Shown here piece by piece: positions 14,892-28,482 of a stretch of 28,482 bases of DNA (positions are counted from its first letter, which is position 1; each line of letters opens with the position of its first letter). The position numbers and the translations under genes are program-made. The notes beneath the pieces were generated by a model. That model saw nothing but the letters and a program-made list of their open reading frames with translations, made no database searches and was not told the DNA's origin. Source of the stretch: a virus; the IMG/VR virus record IMGVR_UViG_3300021963_000515, positions 1 through 28,482 of that record; one strand, given 5' to 3'.

Positions 14892-16088
14892 ATGTCGATG
14901 CGCTATCAAGCCGCCATACTGACGGCATCGTATTTCCCATTGAAGACGCCTAATGCGCCGACGATTGGTACAGCCACGGCTGGTGATACTTCTGCATCTG
15001 TAACTTTTACGGCGCCTGCTAATGTTGGTGGTGGGGCAATTACTGGCTACACGGTGACTTCAAGCCCCGGTGGGTTTACTGGCACTGGTGCGTCTTCGCC
15101 AATTACAGTAAGTGGATTGACAAACGGCACGGCATACACCTTCACTGTTGTTGCAACAAATGCATTTGGAACTGGCCCAGCAAGCGCGGCTAGTAACAGT
15201 GCAACGCCCTCTCCTCCAAGCCAAGTTGCATACACAACTGCTGGGACATACTCATGGGTTGCGCCCCCAAGCCTAAGTCCAGCAACAGTTTCTGTTGTCT
15301 GTGTCGGCGGCGGTGGTGGCGGTTTTGCTACAGGTGCTGGAGATGGGTATTACGCTGGCGCGTGTGGAGGTGGCGGTGGTCTTGGGTACAAAAACGGCTA
15401 CTCTGTGACCTCTGGCTCTTCATACACGGTTGTTGTTGGCGCTGGCGCTGTTATGTCTACTGGCTCCCAAACAAATGGTGGAACAAGTTATTTTGTCAGC
15501 ACTAGCCTTGTGCGTGGGGGCGGTGGTAATGGCGGAAGTAGTGCAAGCCCCGGCTCTGGCGCTGGAGCGGGTGGCGATTACGCTGGTGATGGTGGCGGCA
15601 ATGGTGGAAATGGTGCAAATGGTGGTCAATACAACTCAGGAAATTATTGGCCCGGCGGCGGTGGCGGCGCAGGCGGTTACGCTGGTAACGGCGGTGCTGG
15701 GGCGCAATCTAATTCTTCAAACACAGCAGGTTCGGCAGGAAGTGGCGGTGGAGGTGGTGGAGCCTCTTCTGGCTATGGCTCTATTGGCGGATACGGCGGT
15801 GGCGGTGTAGGTATTCTTGGGCAAGGCTCTAACGGCGCTGGTGGTTCTGGCCCTAGCGGTGGCGGAGGTGGCTCTGGAGGCGCACAAGGTACTGGTTTTG
15901 TTGCTCCAAATTACGCAAATGGCGGCGCAGGCGGAGCATACGGTGGTGGCGGTGGTGGCGGAAACCCATCAACAGGTAATGGTGGTACGCACAATGGAGG
16001 CGTGGGTGGAGTCGGTGCTGTTCGCATCATCTATTCTTTTTCTGGTGTTACTCGCTCATTCCCATCCACAAATACAGGAGACCTGTAA
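14892..16088 (+). CDS. Adhesin with Fn3 domain and glycine-rich region
   Basis: 398 residues behind TAGGAGCG. Residues about 20-107 form a fibronectin type III domain (PTIGTATAGDTSASVTFTAP, GGAITGYTVTSSPGG, then the GTAYTFTVVATNAFGTGPAS closing strands). A short beta segment follows (YTTAGTYSWVAPPS, then VSVVCVGGGGGG) with the usual entry into a glycine-rich domain. From about 135 to 385 the chain is mostly Gly/Ala/Ser/Asn with Tyr, which could fold as a polyglycine-II helix bundle as in the receptor-binding tip of phage S16 gp38-type adhesins (comparison by composition only). Likely a receptor-binding protein. It overlaps the next gene (TAATG). Confidence 0.75.
   Translation: MSMRYQAAILTASYFPLKTPNAPTIGTATAGDTSASVTFTAPANVGGGAITGYTVTSSPGGFTGTGASSPITVSGLTNGTAYTFTVVATNAFGTGPASAASNSATPSPPSQVAYTTAGTYSWVAPPSLSPATVSVVCVGGGGGGFATGAGDGYYAGACGGGGGLGYKNGYSVTSGSSYTVVVGAGAVMSTGSQTNGGTSYFVSTSLVRGGGGNGGSSASPGSGAGAGGDYAGDGGGNGGNGANGGQYNSGNYWPGGGGGAGGYAGNGGAGAQSNSSNTAGSAGSGGGGGGASSGYGSIGGYGGGGVGILGQGSNGAGGSGPSGGGGGSGGAQGTGFVAPNYANGGAGGAYGGGGGGGNPSTGNGGTHNGGVGGVGAVRIIYSFSGVTRSFPSTNTGDL
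15305..15990 (+). repeat. Low-complexity GGN-rich tract (glycine codons), first
   Basis: This stretch is dominated by GGT, GGC and GGA glycine codons coding for the glycine-rich part of the adhesin. The codon mixture is varied, so it is selected as protein rather than being a simple satellite. Such tracts favour slippage and recombination. Confidence 0.6.
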
Positions 16089-16501
16089 TGGAACTCTTTA
16101 TTCGCATAAAAGATGGACAACCTTTTGAACACCCAATTCTTGGTGACAATTTCCGCCAAGCATTTCCTAATGTAGATACAAACAATCTGCCTGCTGAATT
16201 TGCTCGGTTTGTACGAGTTGCACCTCCTGCAATTGGTGTGTACCAAAAAAACCAGACTGTTTCTTATCAGATGGTTAATGGTGCATACACCGATGTGTTT
16301 TCAGTTGAGCAAATGACGGCTGAAGAGATTGCCGCAAAACAGCAGGCAACAAAAGATGCATGGGCGGAAAATGGTTTTGCATCTTGGGTATTTAATGAGT
16401 CAACTTGTTCCTTTGAAGCGCCAACTCCACGACCAACTGATGGTAAGTTCTATCAGTGGGATGAACCAACAACATCTTGGGTGGAGGTAACCAATGCCTA
16501 A
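16088..16501 (+). CDS. Tail-adhesin accessory protein, copy 1
   Basis: 137 residues, start overlapping the adhesin stop. The N-terminal part (MELFIRIKDGQPFEHPILGD) and the central helix (QMTAEEIAAKQQATKDAWAE) are followed by a C-terminal domain: FASWVFNESTCSFEAPTPRP, then FYQWDEPTTSWVEVTN. The same C-terminal domain ends the protein at 17315-17692. Similar small proteins lie after adhesin or fibre genes in many phages and are thought to act as chaperones or assembly factors (recalled, not tested). Its last codons contain the ATG of the next adhesin gene, with an 8-base overlap. Confidence 0.75.
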   Translation: MELFIRIKDGQPFEHPILGDNFRQAFPNVDTNNLPAEFARFVRVAPPAIGVYQKNQTVSYQMVNGAYTDVFSVEQMTAEEIAAKQQATKDAWAENGFASWVFNESTCSFEAPTPRPTDGKFYQWDEPTTSWVEVTNA

Positions 16502-17306
16502 TTATTCAGGTCTTTGGACATCAAGACAGCAAATGCAAGCAATCGGTGGAGGTACTTGGCCTAGCCCACCTTTTTCAATTAACTATCTAGTTGTTGCTGG
16601 CGGTGGCGGTGCTTACACTGGAGCGGGTGGCGCTGGTGGATTGCTTTCTGGAACAATTTTAAGTCCATCAGGAGCATATACAGTAACTGTAGGTGGTGGT
16701 GGTGCGGCTAGTTCTTCTGCTAATGGAAGTAACTCTGTATTTGGTGCATTCACCTCAATAGGCGGTGGTGGCACTACTTTTGATGGCGTTGGTAAAGCAG
16801 GTGGCTCTGGTGGTGGCGGCGACGCCGCTGGCCCTTCTACGGCTGGTGGCGCTGGAACTGTAGGACAGGGAAATAACGGCGGTTCTGGTTTTGGTGGCTC
16901 TCCTTATGCTGGTGGTGGTGGTGGCGGCGCAGGCGCAGTAGGCGGTAATGCTCCAAACTCTTCAACTGGTGGAAATGGTGGAGATGGTATTGCTTCTTCT
17001 ATAACAGGAACTTCTGTAACTCGCGCTGGTGGTGGTGGTGGCGGGGTATACAGTGGTGGAACTGGCGGTTCAGGTGGTACTGGAGGCGGGGGTGCTGGTT
17101 CAGGCGGTACTGGCACAAGTGGAACTGCTAATACAGGTGGCGGTGGTGGTGGCGGAGGAGGGCGAAGTGGTGGTAATGGAGGCTCTGGCGTTGTAATTAT
17201 CAGCACACCAGTGGCGGCATCATCTACCACAGGCTCTCCAACCGTAACAACTAGCGGTGGAAATACCATTTACCAATTCAACTCTTCTGGTTCAATTACA
17301 TTCTGA
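16494..17306 (+). CDS. Glycine-rich adhesin
   Basis: 270 residues. The N-terminus PNYSGLWTSRQQMQAIGGGT then Trp-Pro is a recurrent attachment motif of phage adhesins, with Gly-x-Trp-Thr and Gln-Gln pairs; a related motif starts the protein at 17685. It is followed by SINYLVVAGGGGAYTGAG and a long Gly/Ala/Ser/Asn region to about residue 235, then a short strand pair (SGVVIISTPVAASST, YQFNSSGSITF). It is likely another receptor-binding protein, possibly folding with help from the small proteins on either side. Confidence 0.75.
   Translation: MPNYSGLWTSRQQMQAIGGGTWPSPPFSINYLVVAGGGGAYTGAGGAGGLLSGTILSPSGAYTVTVGGGGAASSSANGSNSVFGAFTSIGGGGTTFDGVGKAGGSGGGGDAAGPSTAGGAGTVGQGNNGGSGFGGSPYAGGGGGGAGAVGGNAPNSSTGGNGGDGIASSITGTSVTRAGGGGGGVYSGGTGGSGGTGGGGAGSGGTGTSGTANTGGGGGGGGGRSGGNGGSGVVIISTPVAASSTTGSPTVTTSGGNTIYQFNSSGSITF
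16590..17190 (+). repeat. Low-complexity GGN-rich tract (glycine codons), second
   Basis: Second glycine-codon tract, coding for the repetitive part of the adhesin at 16494-17306. The reverse strand here gives a proline-rich open frame that is only a shadow. Confidence 0.6.
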
Positions 17307-21511: not shown

Positions 21512-22741
21512 ATGTCATATAACAGCCCCTTCACAGGTAATGTCATCCAGCCAACGGATGTCTCTTATCGCCGAATTATTCTGACGGCTGACTTGCAGTT
21601 GGAATGGCCTATCAATGGCACAGCAACTGACGATGCCGCCGCTCGTATCATGGAGGTGTCTACCGCTTCCACGGCCAACGAGTTGTGGATGCCGCCCGCC
21701 AATCAAACTTCGGTTGGTAATGACGCGCTAATCCGAAATGTGGGCGCTGTTGCTTTGACGGTCAAAGACTACACGGGCGCAAACACTATTGTCACGGTTG
21801 CCGCTGGTCAAGCGCAGTACATTTACATCACGGCCAACCCAACGGTGGCGGGTACTTGGGGCATCATTGCTTACGGCATTGGCTCTTCTGGTGCTGATGC
21901 GGCCACCCTTGCTGGGTATGGCTTGTTGGCAATCGGCCAGACGCTGAACCAAAGCCAGCCAGTCACAACCTTCTCTTCAAGTTATACGGCCACCACATCT
22001 GATCGCTCTAGCACTTATGTGTGGACGGGTGGTGCTGGCACGCTGACTATGACCCTTGCTTCTACGCTTGGGGATAACTGGTTCATGTTTGTTCGCAACA
22101 GCGGAACTGGTGCATTGACTGTTGATGGAACAAGTGGCGACACAATCAATGGCTCTGCTTCGATCATTCTCCAGCCAACTGATTCCGCAATTATTGTTTG
22201 CAGTGGCACAACCTTCTACACCGTTGGCCTTGGCAAATCGACTCAGTTCAACTTCACTCAGTTGACTAAAGCGGTGACCTCTGGAAGTTACACGCTGACA
22301 GCCTCTGAGGCGTCTAATGTGATCCAGAAGTACACGGGCGCTTTGACTGGCAATGTGACCATTGTTGTGCCCCCTACGGTGCAGGTGTACTACATCGTTG
22401 ATGCAACGACTGGCCCTTACACATTGACCATTACAACTGGTAGCGGCGCAAGTGCGACCCTTACCGCTGGCTCTCAAGCCACACTGGTTTGCGACTCTGT
22501 CAACTTGTTCAACGCCAACACAATTTTGGCTGGCTCCTCCGCCATCAGTTTGAACAATGGCAGTGTTAGTTCACCATCATTAAACTTTGCGACAGAGACA
22601 ACGACTGGCGTGTATCACGCCGCCGCTGGTGAATTCAACATTGCAATCCTTGGTGTGCTGAGATCAACATTGACCGCCTCTGGTCTTGCCATTGTTGGAA
22701 CAGGCAACTTTACTGGCGGCATCGCTGGTGGGACTTACTGA
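21512..22741 (+). CDS. Fibre-like structural protein
   Basis: 409 residues starting 2 bases after the adaptor stop. The N-terminus (NVIQPTDVSYRRIILTADLQ, LEWPINGTATDD) is a recurrent start in podovirus-like structural proteins. The rest is Thr/Ser/Gly-rich and strand-forming, with two related phrases (TFSSSYTATTSDRSSTYVWT and VTSGSYTLTASEASNVIQKY) that look like duplicated domains. The end (SLNFATETTTGVYHAAAG, GNFTGGIAGGTY) resembles the C-terminus of the small protein at 13555. It is probably part of the tail tip or a short fibre. It overlaps the nozzle start (TGATG). Confidence 0.7.
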   Translation: MSYNSPFTGNVIQPTDVSYRRIILTADLQLEWPINGTATDDAAARIMEVSTASTANELWMPPANQTSVGNDALIRNVGAVALTVKDYTGANTIVTVAAGQAQYIYITANPTVAGTWGIIAYGIGSSGADAATLAGYGLLAIGQTLNQSQPVTTFSSSYTATTSDRSSTYVWTGGAGTLTMTLASTLGDNWFMFVRNSGTGALTVDGTSGDTINGSASIILQPTDSAIIVCSGTTFYTVGLGKSTQFNFTQLTKAVTSGSYTLTASEASNVIQKYTGALTGNVTIVVPPTVQVYYIVDATTGPYTLTITTGSGASATLTAGSQATLVCDSVNLFNANTILAGSSAISLNNGSVSSPSLNFATETTTGVYHAAAGEFNIAILGVLRSTLTASGLAIVGTGNFTGGIAGGTY

Positions 22742-24801
22742 TGACCAAGAAGGTTTTTGCGATTGATACGCAACCCGGCGTCCAGCGCGACGGTACGATC
22801 TTCGACATGAACTTCTACACCGATGGCCGCTGGGTTCGTTTCCAGCGTGGCCGTCCCCGCAAGATTGGCGGGTACAGAGCCATCACAGAAGAGGCGCATG
22901 GATACTCTCGCGGCATCTATGTCAACTCTGTTGACGGCAACAACCAAGTTTTCAACGGCTACAACAACGGCCTTGAAGTCATCAACATTGACAACACAGG
23001 TATCGGTGGCGGCGTTAACCAGTTCACCTTCACAGGTTTGGTTTTGACGCTCAACACTTTGGTTGGCGGTACGCTGTACACCAACGGTACTTATACCAAT
23101 GTGACCCTTACTGGTGGCTCTGGATCGGGCGCAAAGGCCACCATTGTGGTGTCTGGCAATACTGTGACCACGGTGACCCTGACAACTGCTGGTAACGGCT
23201 ATGTTGTTGGCAACACTTTGAGCGCCACAGCGGCCAGCATCGGCGGAACTGGTAGCGGATTCTCAATCAATGTCGCAACAATCAACGATGGGTTTACTGA
23301 AAGCGATTTAAACCTTTGGCAGTTTGATTCCTCGTTTGATTCTCAGGGTTCAGGCAATCAGTTGTTGTTGGCGCACCCCGGCCTCAACTTGGCTCAAATT
23401 GACCAAACAACGGTGACCCCTGTTTTGGCTGGCAACATTGCTGGCACGACCATGTCTCCTCTGACCGACACCTCTGGAACGACGCCAACAGGCGACATCA
23501 TCGAGGTTGCTGGCGGCGTGGTTGTGTTGCACCCATATGTGTTTGTCTATGGTGACAACGGCCTGATCAAGAACTGCGTGGCTGGCAATCCTTACGACTG
23601 GAACGGCCCAGACTCCAACGAGGTCAATGTAGCCTCCACCAAGATCGTCAAGGGGTTGCCAGTGCGAGGCGGCTCAAACGCTCCTTCTGGCCTGTTCTGG
23701 GCGCTTGATTCGTTGATCCGAGTGTCCTATACCCCGACGACCATTACGGTTGCAAGCACACCTCAGACCTTCTACTGGCGGTATGACATCATCTCCAGCC
23801 AGTCTTCTATCCTTTCAAGCCAGTGCGTCATTGAGTATGACGGCATCTACTACTGGATTGGCGTTGACCGATTCCTGCTGTACAACGGTGTGGTCAAAGA
23901 ACTCAAGAACAACTTCAACCAAAACTACTTTTTTGACAATTTAAACTATGCGCAAAGTCAGAAGGTGTATGCGCAGAAGGTTCCTCGGTTTGGCGAGATT
24001 TGGTGGTTCTTCCCGTCTGGCGACTCGACAGAGTGCAACGACTGCATCATCTACAACACCCGTGAAGATTGCTGGTATGACGCAGGCACAGCCGATGGCG
24101 CACGCCGCTCTGCTGGTTACTTCTCTCAGGTGTTTCGTTACCCCATCAATGCGGGTAATGTGTTGACCACCCAAGAGTTGGTCTTCTCTTCAACGATCAC
24201 CACAAACTCAACGACGAGCATCGAGGTTCCAATTACAAACCAGATTGCAATCAATCAACTGGTGACGGCGACTGGAATTCCTGCTGACACTTTGATTTTG
24301 GCGATTGCCCCAAGCGCAACGGCTGGATACTTCACCGTGACGCTTTCAAATGCGGCCACAGCGTCTGCGACCGTGACGGCTGACTTCAGCACCACGGCTG
24401 GCCGAATCACTTTGTGGCAACACGAAATTGGAACCGATGAGGTTGTTGGCGAAACGGCCAACGCCATTGAGAGTTACTTTACGACCTCTGACTTGGGTTG
24501 GGTGCAGGGTGGCCCGTCGCAGGCTTCGCCTGTGGGCGACAACTACTGGTTGCATCTAGAGCGTATGGAGCCTGACTTCATCATGTCTGGTGAGATGACT
24601 TTCCAAGTTACTGGCCGTCCATTTGCGCAGGCGGAGGACACAACCTCTCCTCCTTACGCATTTAGCCCTGACACCCGCAAGATTGACCTGCGGGAACAGC
24701 GCCGTGAGTTGCGCTTGACTTTCTCAAGCAATGTGGCTGGGGGTGACTACCAGTTGGGTAAAGTTCTGCTCCATGCTAATGTTGGCGATGTAAGGCCATA
24801 A
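22741..24801 (+). CDS. Tail nozzle / tubular protein B-like
   Basis: 686 residues. The N-terminus (PGVQRDGTIFDMNFYTDGRW, VRFQRGRPRKIGGYRAI) and the aromatic motifs further on (FWALDSLIRVSYTP, QTFYWRYDIIS, IYYWIGVDRFLLYNG, EIWWFFPSGDST, NTREDCWYDAG) are typical of nozzle proteins of short-tailed phages, comparable in role to P22 gp10 and T7 gp12. These form the narrow end of the tail tube. Two low-complexity beta segments are inserted: about residues 100-183 (YTNVTLTGGSGSGAKATIVV) and about 478-557 (TTNSTTSIEVPITNQIAINQ), both Thr/Val/Gly-rich. They probably project from the tube. The C-terminus ends in FSSNVAGGDYQLGKVLLHAN. Confidence 0.75.
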   Translation: MTKKVFAIDTQPGVQRDGTIFDMNFYTDGRWVRFQRGRPRKIGGYRAITEEAHGYSRGIYVNSVDGNNQVFNGYNNGLEVINIDNTGIGGGVNQFTFTGLVLTLNTLVGGTLYTNGTYTNVTLTGGSGSGAKATIVVSGNTVTTVTLTTAGNGYVVGNTLSATAASIGGTGSGFSINVATINDGFTESDLNLWQFDSSFDSQGSGNQLLLAHPGLNLAQIDQTTVTPVLAGNIAGTTMSPLTDTSGTTPTGDIIEVAGGVVVLHPYVFVYGDNGLIKNCVAGNPYDWNGPDSNEVNVASTKIVKGLPVRGGSNAPSGLFWALDSLIRVSYTPTTITVASTPQTFYWRYDIISSQSSILSSQCVIEYDGIYYWIGVDRFLLYNGVVKELKNNFNQNYFFDNLNYAQSQKVYAQKVPRFGEIWWFFPSGDSTECNDCIIYNTREDCWYDAGTADGARRSAGYFSQVFRYPINAGNVLTTQELVFSSTITTNSTTSIEVPITNQIAINQLVTATGIPADTLILAIAPSATAGYFTVTLSNAATASATVTADFSTTAGRITLWQHEIGTDEVVGETANAIESYFTTSDLGWVQGGPSQASPVGDNYWLHLERMEPDFIMSGEMTFQVTGRPFAQAEDTTSPPYAFSPDTRKIDLREQRRELRLTFSSNVAGGDYQLGKVLLHANVGDVRP

Positions 24802-24802
24802 A

Positions 24803-25063
24803 ATGGCACTGGCTGTTGTCTACGATCCTCGGTTTCACACCTTTGAGTCGTGGGCGGCGCTAATGTGCGAGGCGTATGCGGGTCAACAGTTGTCGATTCC
24901 ATCGCCTCAAACAGACTGGAAGCAGTGGGCGGCTGGGTTGAAGGCGATTGATGTGTTCACGAATGAGGGCATCCCCGGCCCCTACATCTACAACAACTGG
25001 CAGGATTGGGCGGCGGCTTTGGTTGGCGCTGTCAACCAGCCCACAGAAGGCCCAGACCAATGA
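24803..25063 (+). CDS. Small conserved tail-region protein, 86 aa
   Basis: It starts 1 base after the nozzle stop. Trp/Ala-rich (FESWAALMCEAYAGQQLSIP, TDWKQWAAGLKAIDVFTNEG, YIYNNWQDWAAALVGAVNQ). I recall similar proteins after nozzle genes in uncultured podovirus-like phages, without known role. Repeated Trp-x2-Trp-Ala phrases suggest a small helical structural protein. The stop overlaps the acyl carrier protein start (ATGA), so it heads a coupled group. Confidence 0.65.
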   Translation: MALAVVYDPRFHTFESWAALMCEAYAGQQLSIPSPQTDWKQWAAGLKAIDVFTNEGIPGPYIYNNWQDWAAALVGAVNQPTEGPDQ

Positions 25064-25344
25064 CAGAGTTCATCGAGATTTTCAACTATGTGGCAAAGGT
25101 CGCACGACCAGCCCACGCCAAAGCCACCATCGCAGAATCAATGGAAGACGCCTTCCAAGACATTGGATTGGACAGTCTGGATGGTTTGGTCATGTTGATG
25201 TACTTCGATGACCTCTACGGGATTGATGACGCAGTCAGCAAGGAGTGGACACCCACCTCTGTGCAAGAGTTGCACGACCTTGTGATGGCAAACAAAACCA
25301 AAGAGCCTGCCTCAATGGAAGAAGTGGCCGAGGTGTGCAAATGA
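25060..25344 (+). CDS. Acyl carrier protein
   Basis: 94 residues from the ATG at 25060. An in-frame ATG at 25006 would add 18 Arg/Pro-rich residues read from inside the previous gene and is rejected. The motif DIGLDSLDGLVMLMYFDDLY (residues 34-53) matches the ACP helix-II signature; Ser39 in Asp-Ser-Leu is the site for the 4'-phosphopantetheine arm, and the following helix matches the acidic recognition helix. The N-terminal helix (FIEIFNYVAKVARP) and the final helix (SVQELHDLVMAN) complete a four-helix ACP. It has no holo-ACP synthase gene nearby, so the host enzyme would have to load it. It overlaps the condensing enzyme gene (ATGA), so the two are probably partners. Confidence 0.85.
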   Translation: MTEFIEIFNYVAKVARPAHAKATIAESMEDAFQDIGLDSLDGLVMLMYFDDLYGIDDAVSKEWTPTSVQELHDLVMANKTKEPASMEEVAEVCK

Positions 25345-26450
25345 TCTACCTCACGCACTACCGCACAGCCTCCACGACCAATGTCGAGTTGTTTGACGAC
25401 ATCATCTACCCCCAGAAGGTCAATTGGTTTCCTGAGACTTACAACCGAGCCAAGTCTGGTTTGGTCTATGTGCCCCACAAGTTGGCCGAGAAGGTTCTTG
25501 ACCCTGAGTTGCTGACCTATCTGCGCGAGAACCCTGTTGGCAAGACTGCCTTCATTCTGGCCGCAGGCAATGCGCACTTTGCTGGCATCGGCCAGCGCCC
25601 CTACGACTCGCGCCTGACCTACACCTACAAGTTCCTGCCGTTCACCCTGACACAGGTCTACGCTGGCCGTATAGCCCAGTCCTGCGGCGACATGGATATG
25701 GTGACCACCGACTCGTCAGCCTGCGCCTCCAGCCTTAAAGTGATGATGGATGTGGTCAACCTGATCGACTTCTACGACTATGACCGCGTGATTGTGCTGA
25801 CTGTCGAGGACGGCGTATCAAACGCCGTGCTGGAGTTTTTTGGCGACTCCAAGGCCGTACTAACCCAAAAACAAGAGGACACAGGCATAAAGCCATCCGC
25901 TTTTGACTCGGTAAACAGTGGGTTTAGAGTTGGGCAGGGAGCCGCTTTTGCGGTGTTCGAGTCTGAGAGCGCCGTTTCCCGCCAGAGAGTTACCCCACAC
26001 GCCGCCCTGATTGGTGCCTACAACGCGTCAGAACGATCTACAAACGCAATTGGGCAGTGTGAGGATGGTGAGGGCTTCAAAAAGGTTATTGAGGGCGTAT
26101 TGCACTATTCCCATACAAGGGCAGATCAGATTAAAATTGTCAAAACCCACGGAACTGGAACAGCGTCCAACAACAAGGCCGAAAAGAGCGCCTTGAACCA
26201 AACGCTACAAGGGTTCATTGCGACATCGTATAAACAAAAAATTGGTCATACGATGGGAAGCAGTGGACTGCTTGAAACTTTATTGTTATTGGGCGACATC
26301 AAGGCGGGATTTGTGCCAGCGATTGAGAACCGAACTGAAAACGATTCGGTATTCCTTTCGAAATCGACAAGTCCACCTGATGGTTTGATACTGAGTCTGG
26401 CGGCTGGGATGGGAAACATCTATTCCGCCGCAATATTTAAGGGGATGTGA
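25341..26450 (+). CDS. Beta-ketoacyl-ACP synthase-like condensing enzyme (KAS I/II type)
   Basis: 369 residues from the ATG at 25341, overlapping the ACP stop; an upstream in-frame ATG at 25245 lies in the ACP gene and is rejected. The nucleophile motif is TTDSSACASSLK with Cys128; the first histidine motif is THGTGTASNN with His270; the second is YKQKIGHTMGSSG with His303 and Lys298 five residues before. Cys-His-His with THGTGT defines the FabB/FabF/polyketide class, not FabH. It lacks some 40 residues of a normal FabF, mainly at the N-terminus. In the GFGGTN loop the sequence is SLAAGMGN, so the gatekeeper Phe of FabF is probably Ala355. It would extend an acyl-ACP chain using malonyl-ACP, or accept an unusual acyl group. 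A role in the phage cycle is unknown. Confidence 0.85.
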   Translation: MIYLTHYRTASTTNVELFDDIIYPQKVNWFPETYNRAKSGLVYVPHKLAEKVLDPELLTYLRENPVGKTAFILAAGNAHFAGIGQRPYDSRLTYTYKFLPFTLTQVYAGRIAQSCGDMDMVTTDSSACASSLKVMMDVVNLIDFYDYDRVIVLTVEDGVSNAVLEFFGDSKAVLTQKQEDTGIKPSAFDSVNSGFRVGQGAAFAVFESESAVSRQRVTPHAALIGAYNASERSTNAIGQCEDGEGFKKVIEGVLHYSHTRADQIKIVKTHGTGTASNNKAEKSALNQTLQGFIATSYKQKIGHTMGSSGLLETLLLLGDIKAGFVPAIENRTENDSVFLSKSTSPPDGLILSLAAGMGNIYSAAIFKGM

Positions 26451-26893
26451 TGCTGGTCGATAGCAAAAAGAAGCAACTTAGTTCTGAGGCAATCTTGATG
26501 ATTGCGGCTCAACAGACGAAGTCTCCTTATTCCCCAGAGCAAGTCTATGCGGCTCTCGTAAAAGAGATGAACTTGGAAGGCACAAGCACCTACCGAGAAG
26601 GCAATACCGTGTTTCTGATGCATCACGCCAAGGGCCGTATTGGAACCTTCCGCGCTCTAAATGCTGACACAGCCAGAAATTATCTGGACAACTCCTATCA
26701 ATTTATTCAAGACGCATACAAGATGGGCTTTGACATTCTTGTGAGCGACTTTCAAGACCCGACAATTATGAACATTTTTAAGGGCATCTCAAGAAACCCT
26801 CCGCAAGAAGGCATGGGCTACCGCGCAGAGAAAACCAAAACAGGTTTCCGCGTGACGGTCAAGTTGGGGCCAGCGCGGCCTGATAAGGAATAA
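26450..26893 (+). CDS. Unknown protein coupled to ACP and KAS; possible acyltransferase fold
   Basis: 147 residues from the ATG at 26450, whose first base is the last base of the KAS stop (TGATG), with AAGGGG upstream. An in-frame GTG at 26447 is also possible but adds only one residue. The N-terminal part is helical (SEAILMIAAQQTKSPYSPEQ). From residue 49 the pattern is strand (NTVFLMHHAKG), strand (RIGTFRALNADTA), long helix (RNYLDNSYQFIQDAYKMG), strand (FDILVSDFQDPT), helix (IMNIFKGISRN) and strand (GFRVTVKLG). This order resembles the GNAT fold and the acetyltransferase-like T7 gp13, but no acetyl-CoA loop is clear. As a partner of ACP and KAS it could be an acyl-ACP-using transferase. 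This is inference. Confidence 0.7.
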   Translation: MLVDSKKKQLSSEAILMIAAQQTKSPYSPEQVYAALVKEMNLEGTSTYREGNTVFLMHHAKGRIGTFRALNADTARNYLDNSYQFIQDAYKMGFDILVSDFQDPTIMNIFKGISRNPPQEGMGYRAEKTKTGFRVTVKLGPARPDKE

Positions 26894-26895
26894 AA

Positions 26896-28482
26896 ATGAG
26901 CGCGGTAGCAGATTTAATTGAAGATGCATTTGACGCTGTTGGTGATGTATTTGAAGCCGTTGGCGATGTCGTAGAAAGCGTTGTTGATGTAGTCGGTGAC
27001 GCTCTTGAGTTTGTTGGCGATACCGTCCAAAAGGTTCTTGACGATCCTTTGCCTGTGCTTCTGCAAATTGCTGGCGCGGCCATTGGTATCCCGCCTTATG
27101 TGACTTCCGCCATAGTTACTGGTGCGCGTGGCGGTGATCTTGGGGACATGGTTCTGTCTGCTGGCACATCTTATCTTGGAGGCCAGTTGGGTGTTCAAGT
27201 TGCTGGCCCAGTTTCAGACTCTCTTTCATCTACATTTATTGAATCTGGAGTTAATTCCACAGTTGCCAATATTGTTTCTGACGGTATTGGCAAGGGGCTT
27301 GTTAGTGGAGTCATGGCAGAGGTTAAAGGTGGTGAATTTGGTGACGGCTTTGCTGGCGGTTTTGTCGGAACCGTTGTTGGCGGTGGCGTAACACAACTCA
27401 CCAATGTTGTTTCTGATTCAGTGATCAGCACCGCAACAACTGCAATGGAATCGGTGGGCACTACGGCCAACACTGATTTTGTGGCGGGATTTGATTCTGG
27501 CGTGACTACTGTTGACACCTCTAGCGCAACGGTCACCAGCACATTTGAAAATGTTGCTTCAACTTTTGATTCAGTTGATACAACTGGCGCATCAACCACG
27601 CTGAACTTGGCAACCGATGGCGCTGGCGTATCGTCAGACATTGTTTCTGATGTCACTGTTTCCAACATAGGCGTTGACAACACAGGTGTAGACAGCACAT
27701 TCACTGGCGATACAAGCACAACTGGCGCAACCGATGTTGTTGATACAAACCTGAACAGCGCCGACACAACAACTGGCTCAACACTTACTGGCTCTGGTGG
27801 CGCAGACAGTGTTACAGATGTTGTCCTGAACAGTGGCGACACAACTGGCTCGACCATCATCGGTGATTCTGGTGGCTTGGATAGTGTCGCCGACATAATT
27901 CAAAATCTTGACTCTGGCGATACAACGCTGGACACAACGCTGGGTACGACAGGCGACACGACAACTGATACAACGGGCGACACCACCGTGGGTGGCCTTG
28001 GCACGATAAACACTGAGTTGACTGGTGGATCGGACATTGATACAGGCACTGATGTTGTTGGTGGCTTGACCGCAGTAACTGGTGATCAGGGTGCAGACAC
28101 CACAGACACCGTGGTCACAGACGCTGGCGGAAACACTGTTGTCGTGAAAGCAGATGATGTCATTACCGATACTGGTGCAGGCAACATTGTTGCTGACACT
28201 GGCTCAACTGATACCGTTGGTGGTTTGACGCAAGTGCAGTCTGGCGACACCCGCTTGAATGTAGATTCAGCCGCAGATGCCGCAACAACTGGCGGCTTGA
28301 ATCAAGCAAGCACCACAGGATCAAAAACTGATGCGCTTGCAAACATCGCAAAAGGCGCAGTGACTAAGGCTGTGACTGGGGCCGTTAAAGGTCAGATCAG
28401 AAGCGGCATCAATAAGGCAATTGGCGTCAAGACTGCAAAACAACCATCAGTTGGGAAGCAGTTGGTCAAGGGTGTTGCATCT
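26896..28482 (+). CDS. Thr/Asp/Gly-rich repetitive protein (partial, cut at right edge)
   Basis: The frame runs from the ATG at 26896 (AAGGA seven bases upstream) to the window end without a stop: 529 codons. The N-terminus is a run of acidic amphipathic turns (EDAFDAVGDVFEAVGDVVES). Then comes DDPLPVLLQIAGAAIGIPPY with a hydrophobic Gly/Ala region (TYLGG-like phrases to about residue 165). From about 190 to 480 it is Thr/Asp/Ser/Gly-rich with repeated phrases such as SGDTT and DTTGDTT and almost no basic residue. The visible end turns basic (AKGAVTKAVTGAVKGQIRSG). The N-terminal part resembles phage proteins I recall with the DDPLPVLLQIAG pattern. A virion-internal or fibre role is possible; function unknown. 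Confidence 0.7.
   Translation, partial: MSAVADLIEDAFDAVGDVFEAVGDVVESVVDVVGDALEFVGDTVQKVLDDPLPVLLQIAGAAIGIPPYVTSAIVTGARGGDLGDMVLSAGTSYLGGQLGVQVAGPVSDSLSSTFIESGVNSTVANIVSDGIGKGLVSGVMAEVKGGEFGDGFAGGFVGTVVGGGVTQLTNVVSDSVISTATTAMESVGTTANTDFVAGFDSGVTTVDTSSATVTSTFENVASTFDSVDTTGASTTLNLATDGAGVSSDIVSDVTVSNIGVDNTGVDSTFTGDTSTTGATDVVDTNLNSADTTTGSTLTGSGGADSVTDVVLNSGDTTGSTIIGDSGGLDSVADIIQNLDSGDTTLDTTLGTTGDTTTDTTGDTTVGGLGTINTELTGGSDIDTGTDVVGGLTAVTGDQGADTTDTVVTDAGGNTVVVKADDVITDTGAGNIVADTGSTDTVGGLTQVQSGDTRLNVDSAADAATTGGLNQASTTGSKTDALANIAKGAVTKAVTGAVKGQIRSGINKAIGVKTAKQPSVGKQLVKGVAS

Follow-up and report, generated by a model that had tools for sequence, protein, structure and literature searches.

A conserved pair of acyl carrier protein and ketoacyl synthase-like genes in uncultured phages

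The window analysed here is a whole virus record of 28,482 bases. Portal and capsid genes lie upstream in the record (phrog_1216; PF25209), and two tail-region proteins (window positions 14892-16088 and 16494-17306) carry fibronectin III and glycine-rich domains (PF00041, PF21722). The end of the window holds, in order, a tail nozzle gene, P86, an acyl carrier protein gene (ACP), a gene for a condensing enzyme (KAS), P3 and an ejection-type gene:

22741..24801, + strand: tail nozzle / gp10-like stabilization protein (context gene)
24803..25063, + strand: P86, a small conserved gene 3' of the nozzle gene (context gene)
25060..25344, + strand: ACP, acyl carrier protein, 94 aa, with a predicted phosphopantetheine site at Ser39 in DSLD
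25341..26450, + strand: KAS, beta-ketoacyl-ACP synthase-like condensing enzyme, 369 aa, with C128, H270, K298, H303 and E281
25341..25344, + strand: ATGA overlap by which the ACP and KAS genes are coupled, conserved in 73/73 relatives measured
26447..26893, + strand: P3, a protein with a GNAT-like fold that lacks the acetyl-CoA loop, a neighbour of the ACP-KAS unit rather than part of it
26896..28482, + strand: 5' part of an ejection-type repeat-rich protein gene, which runs past the record end (context gene)

The ACP gene starts within the final codons of P86, the KAS gene within the final codons of ACP (ATGA) and the P3 gene within the final codons of KAS (GTGATG). A sequence-only reading of this DNA had placed three such overlapping reading frames between the tail nozzle gene and a probable virion gene, and all three are where it put them. 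P3 is 147-148 aa long, with its start at GTG 26447 or ATG 26450. For KAS, a longer GTG start at 25245 would run into ACP and was rejected in favor of ATG 25341, because in the relatives it is the shorter start that lies in the conserved ATGA overlap. The name "nozzle" comes from a homologue in MW202545 annotated as "phage stabilization protein", with no Pfam match behind it.

The ACP carries the motif I-G-L-D-S(39)-L-D. As a single sequence it had no match in Pfam, and among phage families it matched the profile of phrog_5934 ("acyl carrier protein") only weakly (7e-4). The ACP family stayed below the cut-off of the Pfam PP-binding model, which matched 10 of 18 members with a best E of 0.01, and a profile of the family hits ACPs of known structure at 1.3e-4. 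We placed the catalytic residues of both ACP and KAS by alignment to E. coli AcpP and FabF. The DSL motif, described earlier as complete, has its serine in 144/144 distinct ACP copies, and DSLD is invariant in the alignments. The position of AcpP E41 is acidic in only one of 143 phage ACP copies, hinting at a dedicated partner.

KAS matched both ketoacyl-synthase domains in Pfam, PF00109 at 38.2 bits and PF02801 at 50.6 bits, each above the cut-off of 20.8. The best NCBIfam model was fabF (7.5e-28), with a score of 97 bits against an equivalog cut-off of 494; AmcF and models of the polyketide synthase (PKS) type appeared as secondary matches. Its sequence matches FabF-type structures at 8e-17. 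The predicted structure (AlphaFold) is only fair, with a mean pLDDT of 71, and a Foldseek search with this fair model returned FabF (1kas) as the best match (1.1e-17, TM 0.58). By sequence, the assignment to the ketoacyl synthases is certain. The Cys-His-Lys-His set that had been called complete in this one protein is indeed kept throughout the family: C128, H270, K298 and H303, aligning with FabF C163, H303, K335 and H340, are present in 140/141 distinct copies for the cysteine and 141/141 for the other three, as are E281 and D189 (141/141 each). The single copy with Arg at C128 reflects either a sequencing error or a decayed copy.

The pair shares with FabF/FabB (KAS II/I) and AcpP the ketoacyl-synthase domains, the Cys-His-Lys-His set, the conserved Glu and Asp and the DSL serine of the ACP, and in E. 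coli, too, acpP and fabF are neighbours. The phage enzyme differs, however, in being only about 22% identical to FabF, in its length (369 versus 413 aa), in a shorter N-terminal part with two gaps, and in a gating loop that reads GMGN where FabF has GFGG. Phe400 of this FabF loop controls the entry of acyl groups, and some polyketide synthases have another residue in its place (PMC7138838). M357 is found in 138/138 phage copies that cover the loop, and although the exact register of the loop alignment is uncertain, no Phe is kept there. KAS forms a divergent, phage-only clade. It probably works like FabB/FabF, but because GFGG with its Phe400 has given way to GMGN we do not file it as FabF; the low identity, the shortened N-terminal part and the changed loop together leave room for a different KAS reaction. 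The loop, the N-terminal shortening and the E41 difference in the ACP would be in keeping with two dedicated partners that have a substrate range of their own.

In a scan of 2.9 million viral contigs, KAS relatives turned up on 361 viral stretches. The loci we examined were the best 80 per scan out of longer match lists, and most of the records compared are fragments. Across all loci read there were 141 distinct full-length KAS proteins, and an ACP stood in front of KAS in 139 of the 139 distinct copies with enough upstream sequence, with an overlap of 4 bases wherever it was measured. The idea of a carrier protein accompanied by its own condensing enzyme, raised from the window alone, therefore holds across the family: ACP and KAS make up a true pair, inseparable and widespread, in hundreds of uncultured phages. 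The first panel (80 loci plus MW202545) showed one uniform order, nozzle-P86-ACP-KAS-P3, wherever the contig was long enough. MW202545, a 57-kb circular record from an environmental sample with this same gene order, was the only full-length KAS relative among 50,697 phage records. Evolutionary distances covary most strongly between ACP and KAS (r = 0.94, against 0.82 for KAS-P3 and 0.80 for ACP-P3), values that also mirror common phage ancestry. In informative comparisons, dN/dS was about 0.04-0.16 for ACP, KAS and P3. Shared gene order and purifying selection put the arrangement of the locus far beyond chance; ACP and KAS retain their catalytic residues under this selection and are predicted to be active.

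We considered whether the pair might come from a prophage or a host, and rejected this: a scan of 84,980 species genomes by peptide patterns, which distant relatives may escape, gave one match (JAGYJQ010000016.1), a contig with ACP-KAS-P3 that looks like phage DNA although it was binned into a Balneolaceae metagenome-assembled genome. It offers a weak host lead.

P3 had no convincing match by sequence in Pfam, PHROG or PDB. Its structural model is good (pLDDT 91) and has a GNAT-like fold; the top PDB fold matches are of the GNAT type (probability 0.99-1.00, TM up to 0.58), and among viral proteins the nearest folds belong to phage proteins that are uncharacterised. The acetyl-CoA loop Q/RxxGxG/A is matched anywhere in 3 of 124 distinct P3 copies and absent from 121. 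In five contigs (L156, L335, L336, L337 and L341) P86 is followed by P3 with no ACP-KAS, and in the L354/L359 phage type ACP-KAS occurs without P3. The view of the three genes as one co-occurring set stands for the relatives in the first panel, where the trio is together on every contig of sufficient length, but not for these two groups. As each occurs without the other, we rejected P3 as a pathway partner, and its proposed role as the natural transfer step finds no support from these contigs or from the missing loop. In MW202879, a distinct phage, a "putative acetyltransferase" adjoins the nozzle gene, without ACP-KAS.

The closest isolates by nozzle sequence are the Caulobacter phages GB2A, RW, RLK and KcrB. 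In GB2A the nozzle gene, P86 and the ejection gene follow one another without ACP, KAS or P3; P86 is thus retained where ACP-KAS is absent. On the nozzle tree, the records that lack KAS require at least two changes, and most simply four. In four of these records (L335, L336, L337 and L341) the 30 bases just ahead of P3 are similar to the 3' end of KAS in their KAS-bearing siblings (ATTTTTGACCCGAGG...ATG), and none or one of 489 other starts preceded by a ribosome-binding site scored equally high. This apparent remnant suggests a deletion scar, and hence loss of ACP-KAS in the phages without KAS; the alternative is a shared ribosome-binding region. In another relative (L331:6721-7671), a GlcNAc-type glycosyltransferase gene (PF11397, 6e-52) lies between P86 and ACP, so the interval from nozzle to P3 takes other cargo too.

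The pair also has a second genomic address. In L354, L355, L329 and their kin it sits in the replication region, between a SNF2-type helicase and small genes, with a P4-type primase and a ribonucleotide reductase nearby (in L354 the reductase, at L354:14381-16255, is adenosylcobalamin-dependent). The late-operon position therefore does not prove a role in the virion, since the same pair occupies the replication region of other phages. Two of these records encode a holo-ACP synthase (AcpS), the enzyme by which ACPs are armed:

L354:3412-3777: AcpS, 121 aa, about 4 kb upstream of the pair in the same replication region
G021:C1:26391-26639: AcpS in L355, in the replication region with ACP-KAS

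The L354 protein scored above the cut-off for PF01648 and for TIGR00556 (60.2 bits, cut-off 45), and slightly below it for TIGR00516 (52.5 against 59.8). AcpS was found only in these two records; 42 further virus records covered by the same search lacked it. Twenty further related phage records had no AcpS, FabD-type or FabG-type gene (PF01648, PF00698, PF13561). Most of the phages would therefore depend on the AcpS of the host, and host enzymes would have to supply the rest of any pathway in those 20. Of all the evidence, the AcpS genes of L354 and L355 speak most strongly, if indirectly, for an ACP meant to be armed with 4'-phosphopantetheine.

We think it rather likely that ACP-KAS is a self-contained two-gene phage cassette (an auxiliary metabolic gene, or moron) that carries out one acyl-condensation step in the infected cell. 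The ACP would be converted to holo-ACP by the host AcpS, or by the phage's own, after which host enzymes, FabD for example, would load it with malonyl and acyl groups, the host FabD and AcpS being assumed here. KAS would then join the two groups by decarboxylative Claisen condensation on its dedicated ACP. Host FabG, FabZ and FabI, or nothing, would complete the product, which might shift the acyl or lipid pool of the cell or be a small acyl product in itself. P3 and the late operon would be the customary address of the cassette and stand outside the reaction. We favor an auxiliary metabolic cassette acting in the cell over a virion machine because the pair stays together, changes its address, seems to be lost as one unit and would need host enzymes for loading and finishing. 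A more specific reading, that ACP and the divergent KAS, in some phages with AcpS, form a phage-specific acyl-condensation system kept and moved as a unit across several phage types and yielding, during infection, a phage-dictated acyl product (for example a signal or a changed membrane lipid), is offered tentatively.

Some GNAT-fold enzymes, for example LuxI, use acyl-ACP as a substrate and lack the usual CoA loop. Together with the acyltransferase-like fold predicted for P3 and the usual position of the trio between nozzle and ejection-type genes, this general knowledge would favor a modification of the virion, in which an acyl group from ACP-KAS is put on a virion or ejection protein by P3. 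We consider this quite unlikely, as P3 is kept in the five contigs without ACP-KAS, other phages keep the pair, but not P3, in their replication region, and the related phage GB2A manages nozzle, P86 and ejection gene with none of the trio. Somewhat less improbable, though still unlikely, is that KAS is a specialised acyltransferase or polyketide-type synthase making a small signalling or antagonistic molecule and not a fatty acid. The phage-only divergence of KAS, its altered gating loop, its AmcF and PKS-type matches and the nearly universal lack of the acidic E41-position residue in the ACP all agree with that proposal, but fabF is still the best model, and no malonyl-transferase or reductase gene accompanies the pair in the records searched. 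We regard it as very improbable that ACP and KAS serve as a decoy, tying up pantetheine, acyl groups or ACP partners of the host so as to stop its lipid synthesis. A free-standing carrier protein could serve as a sponge, and downstream enzymes are missing from the phage records searched; a decoy, however, would have no need of so strictly invariant a Cys-His-Lys-His set, and the phage AcpS in two records suggests turnover.

Carrier proteins of phages have been listed for years without a role (PMC5463345, PMC10152775, PMC11924767). ORF32 of Erythrobacter phage R6L, in a report that gives the role of phage ACPs as not known (PMC5463345), and ORF117 of Vibrio phage R16F (PMC10152775) are stand-alone ACPs. 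Like these (PHROG 5934), the ACP described here is phage-encoded, and it matches their family weakly; those reports, however, concern single ACPs, whereas in the present set no KAS copy with sufficient upstream sequence lacks its ACP. KAS matches PHROG 35856 at 3.8e-41, so its family has been seen before, although in the PHROG library it has neither a function nor a link to an ACP. The KS-like protein and ACP of the cispentacin biosynthesis cluster (AmcF/AmcB) are also among the matches, but more weakly than FabF and far below the cut-off, in a comparison that covered AmcF/AmcB of the Amc genes. fabF has been reported within bulk lists of auxiliary metabolic genes (PMC10653327, PMC12783922), and fabG-acpP-fabF in predicted Rhodobacteraceae prophages (PMC8224337). 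In the latter, too, the genes of an ACP and of a FabF-type enzyme are neighbours within DNA predicted to be phage; the order there, however, is the ordinary host type with fabG, unlike the phage-only divergent KAS without fabG, and it may represent host DNA at the prophage ends.

We found no description of the conserved ACP-KAS pair in the open-access full-text literature, most subscription papers and preprints being outside the scope of that search. The pair suggests that phages themselves run, during infection, a step of acyl chemistry not described so far, and the fixed pairing, with AcpS in some phages, turns the long-listed ACPs into a testable pathway. If this is true, it would be an unusual case of phages supplying their own carbon-carbon bond-forming acyl chemistry. 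The pair is common in one viral collection, yet the phage records searched hold a single full-length example. Other phage records with FabF-like matches, at 20-28%, are unannotated and look like host-type FabF, apparently from host or mixed DNA.
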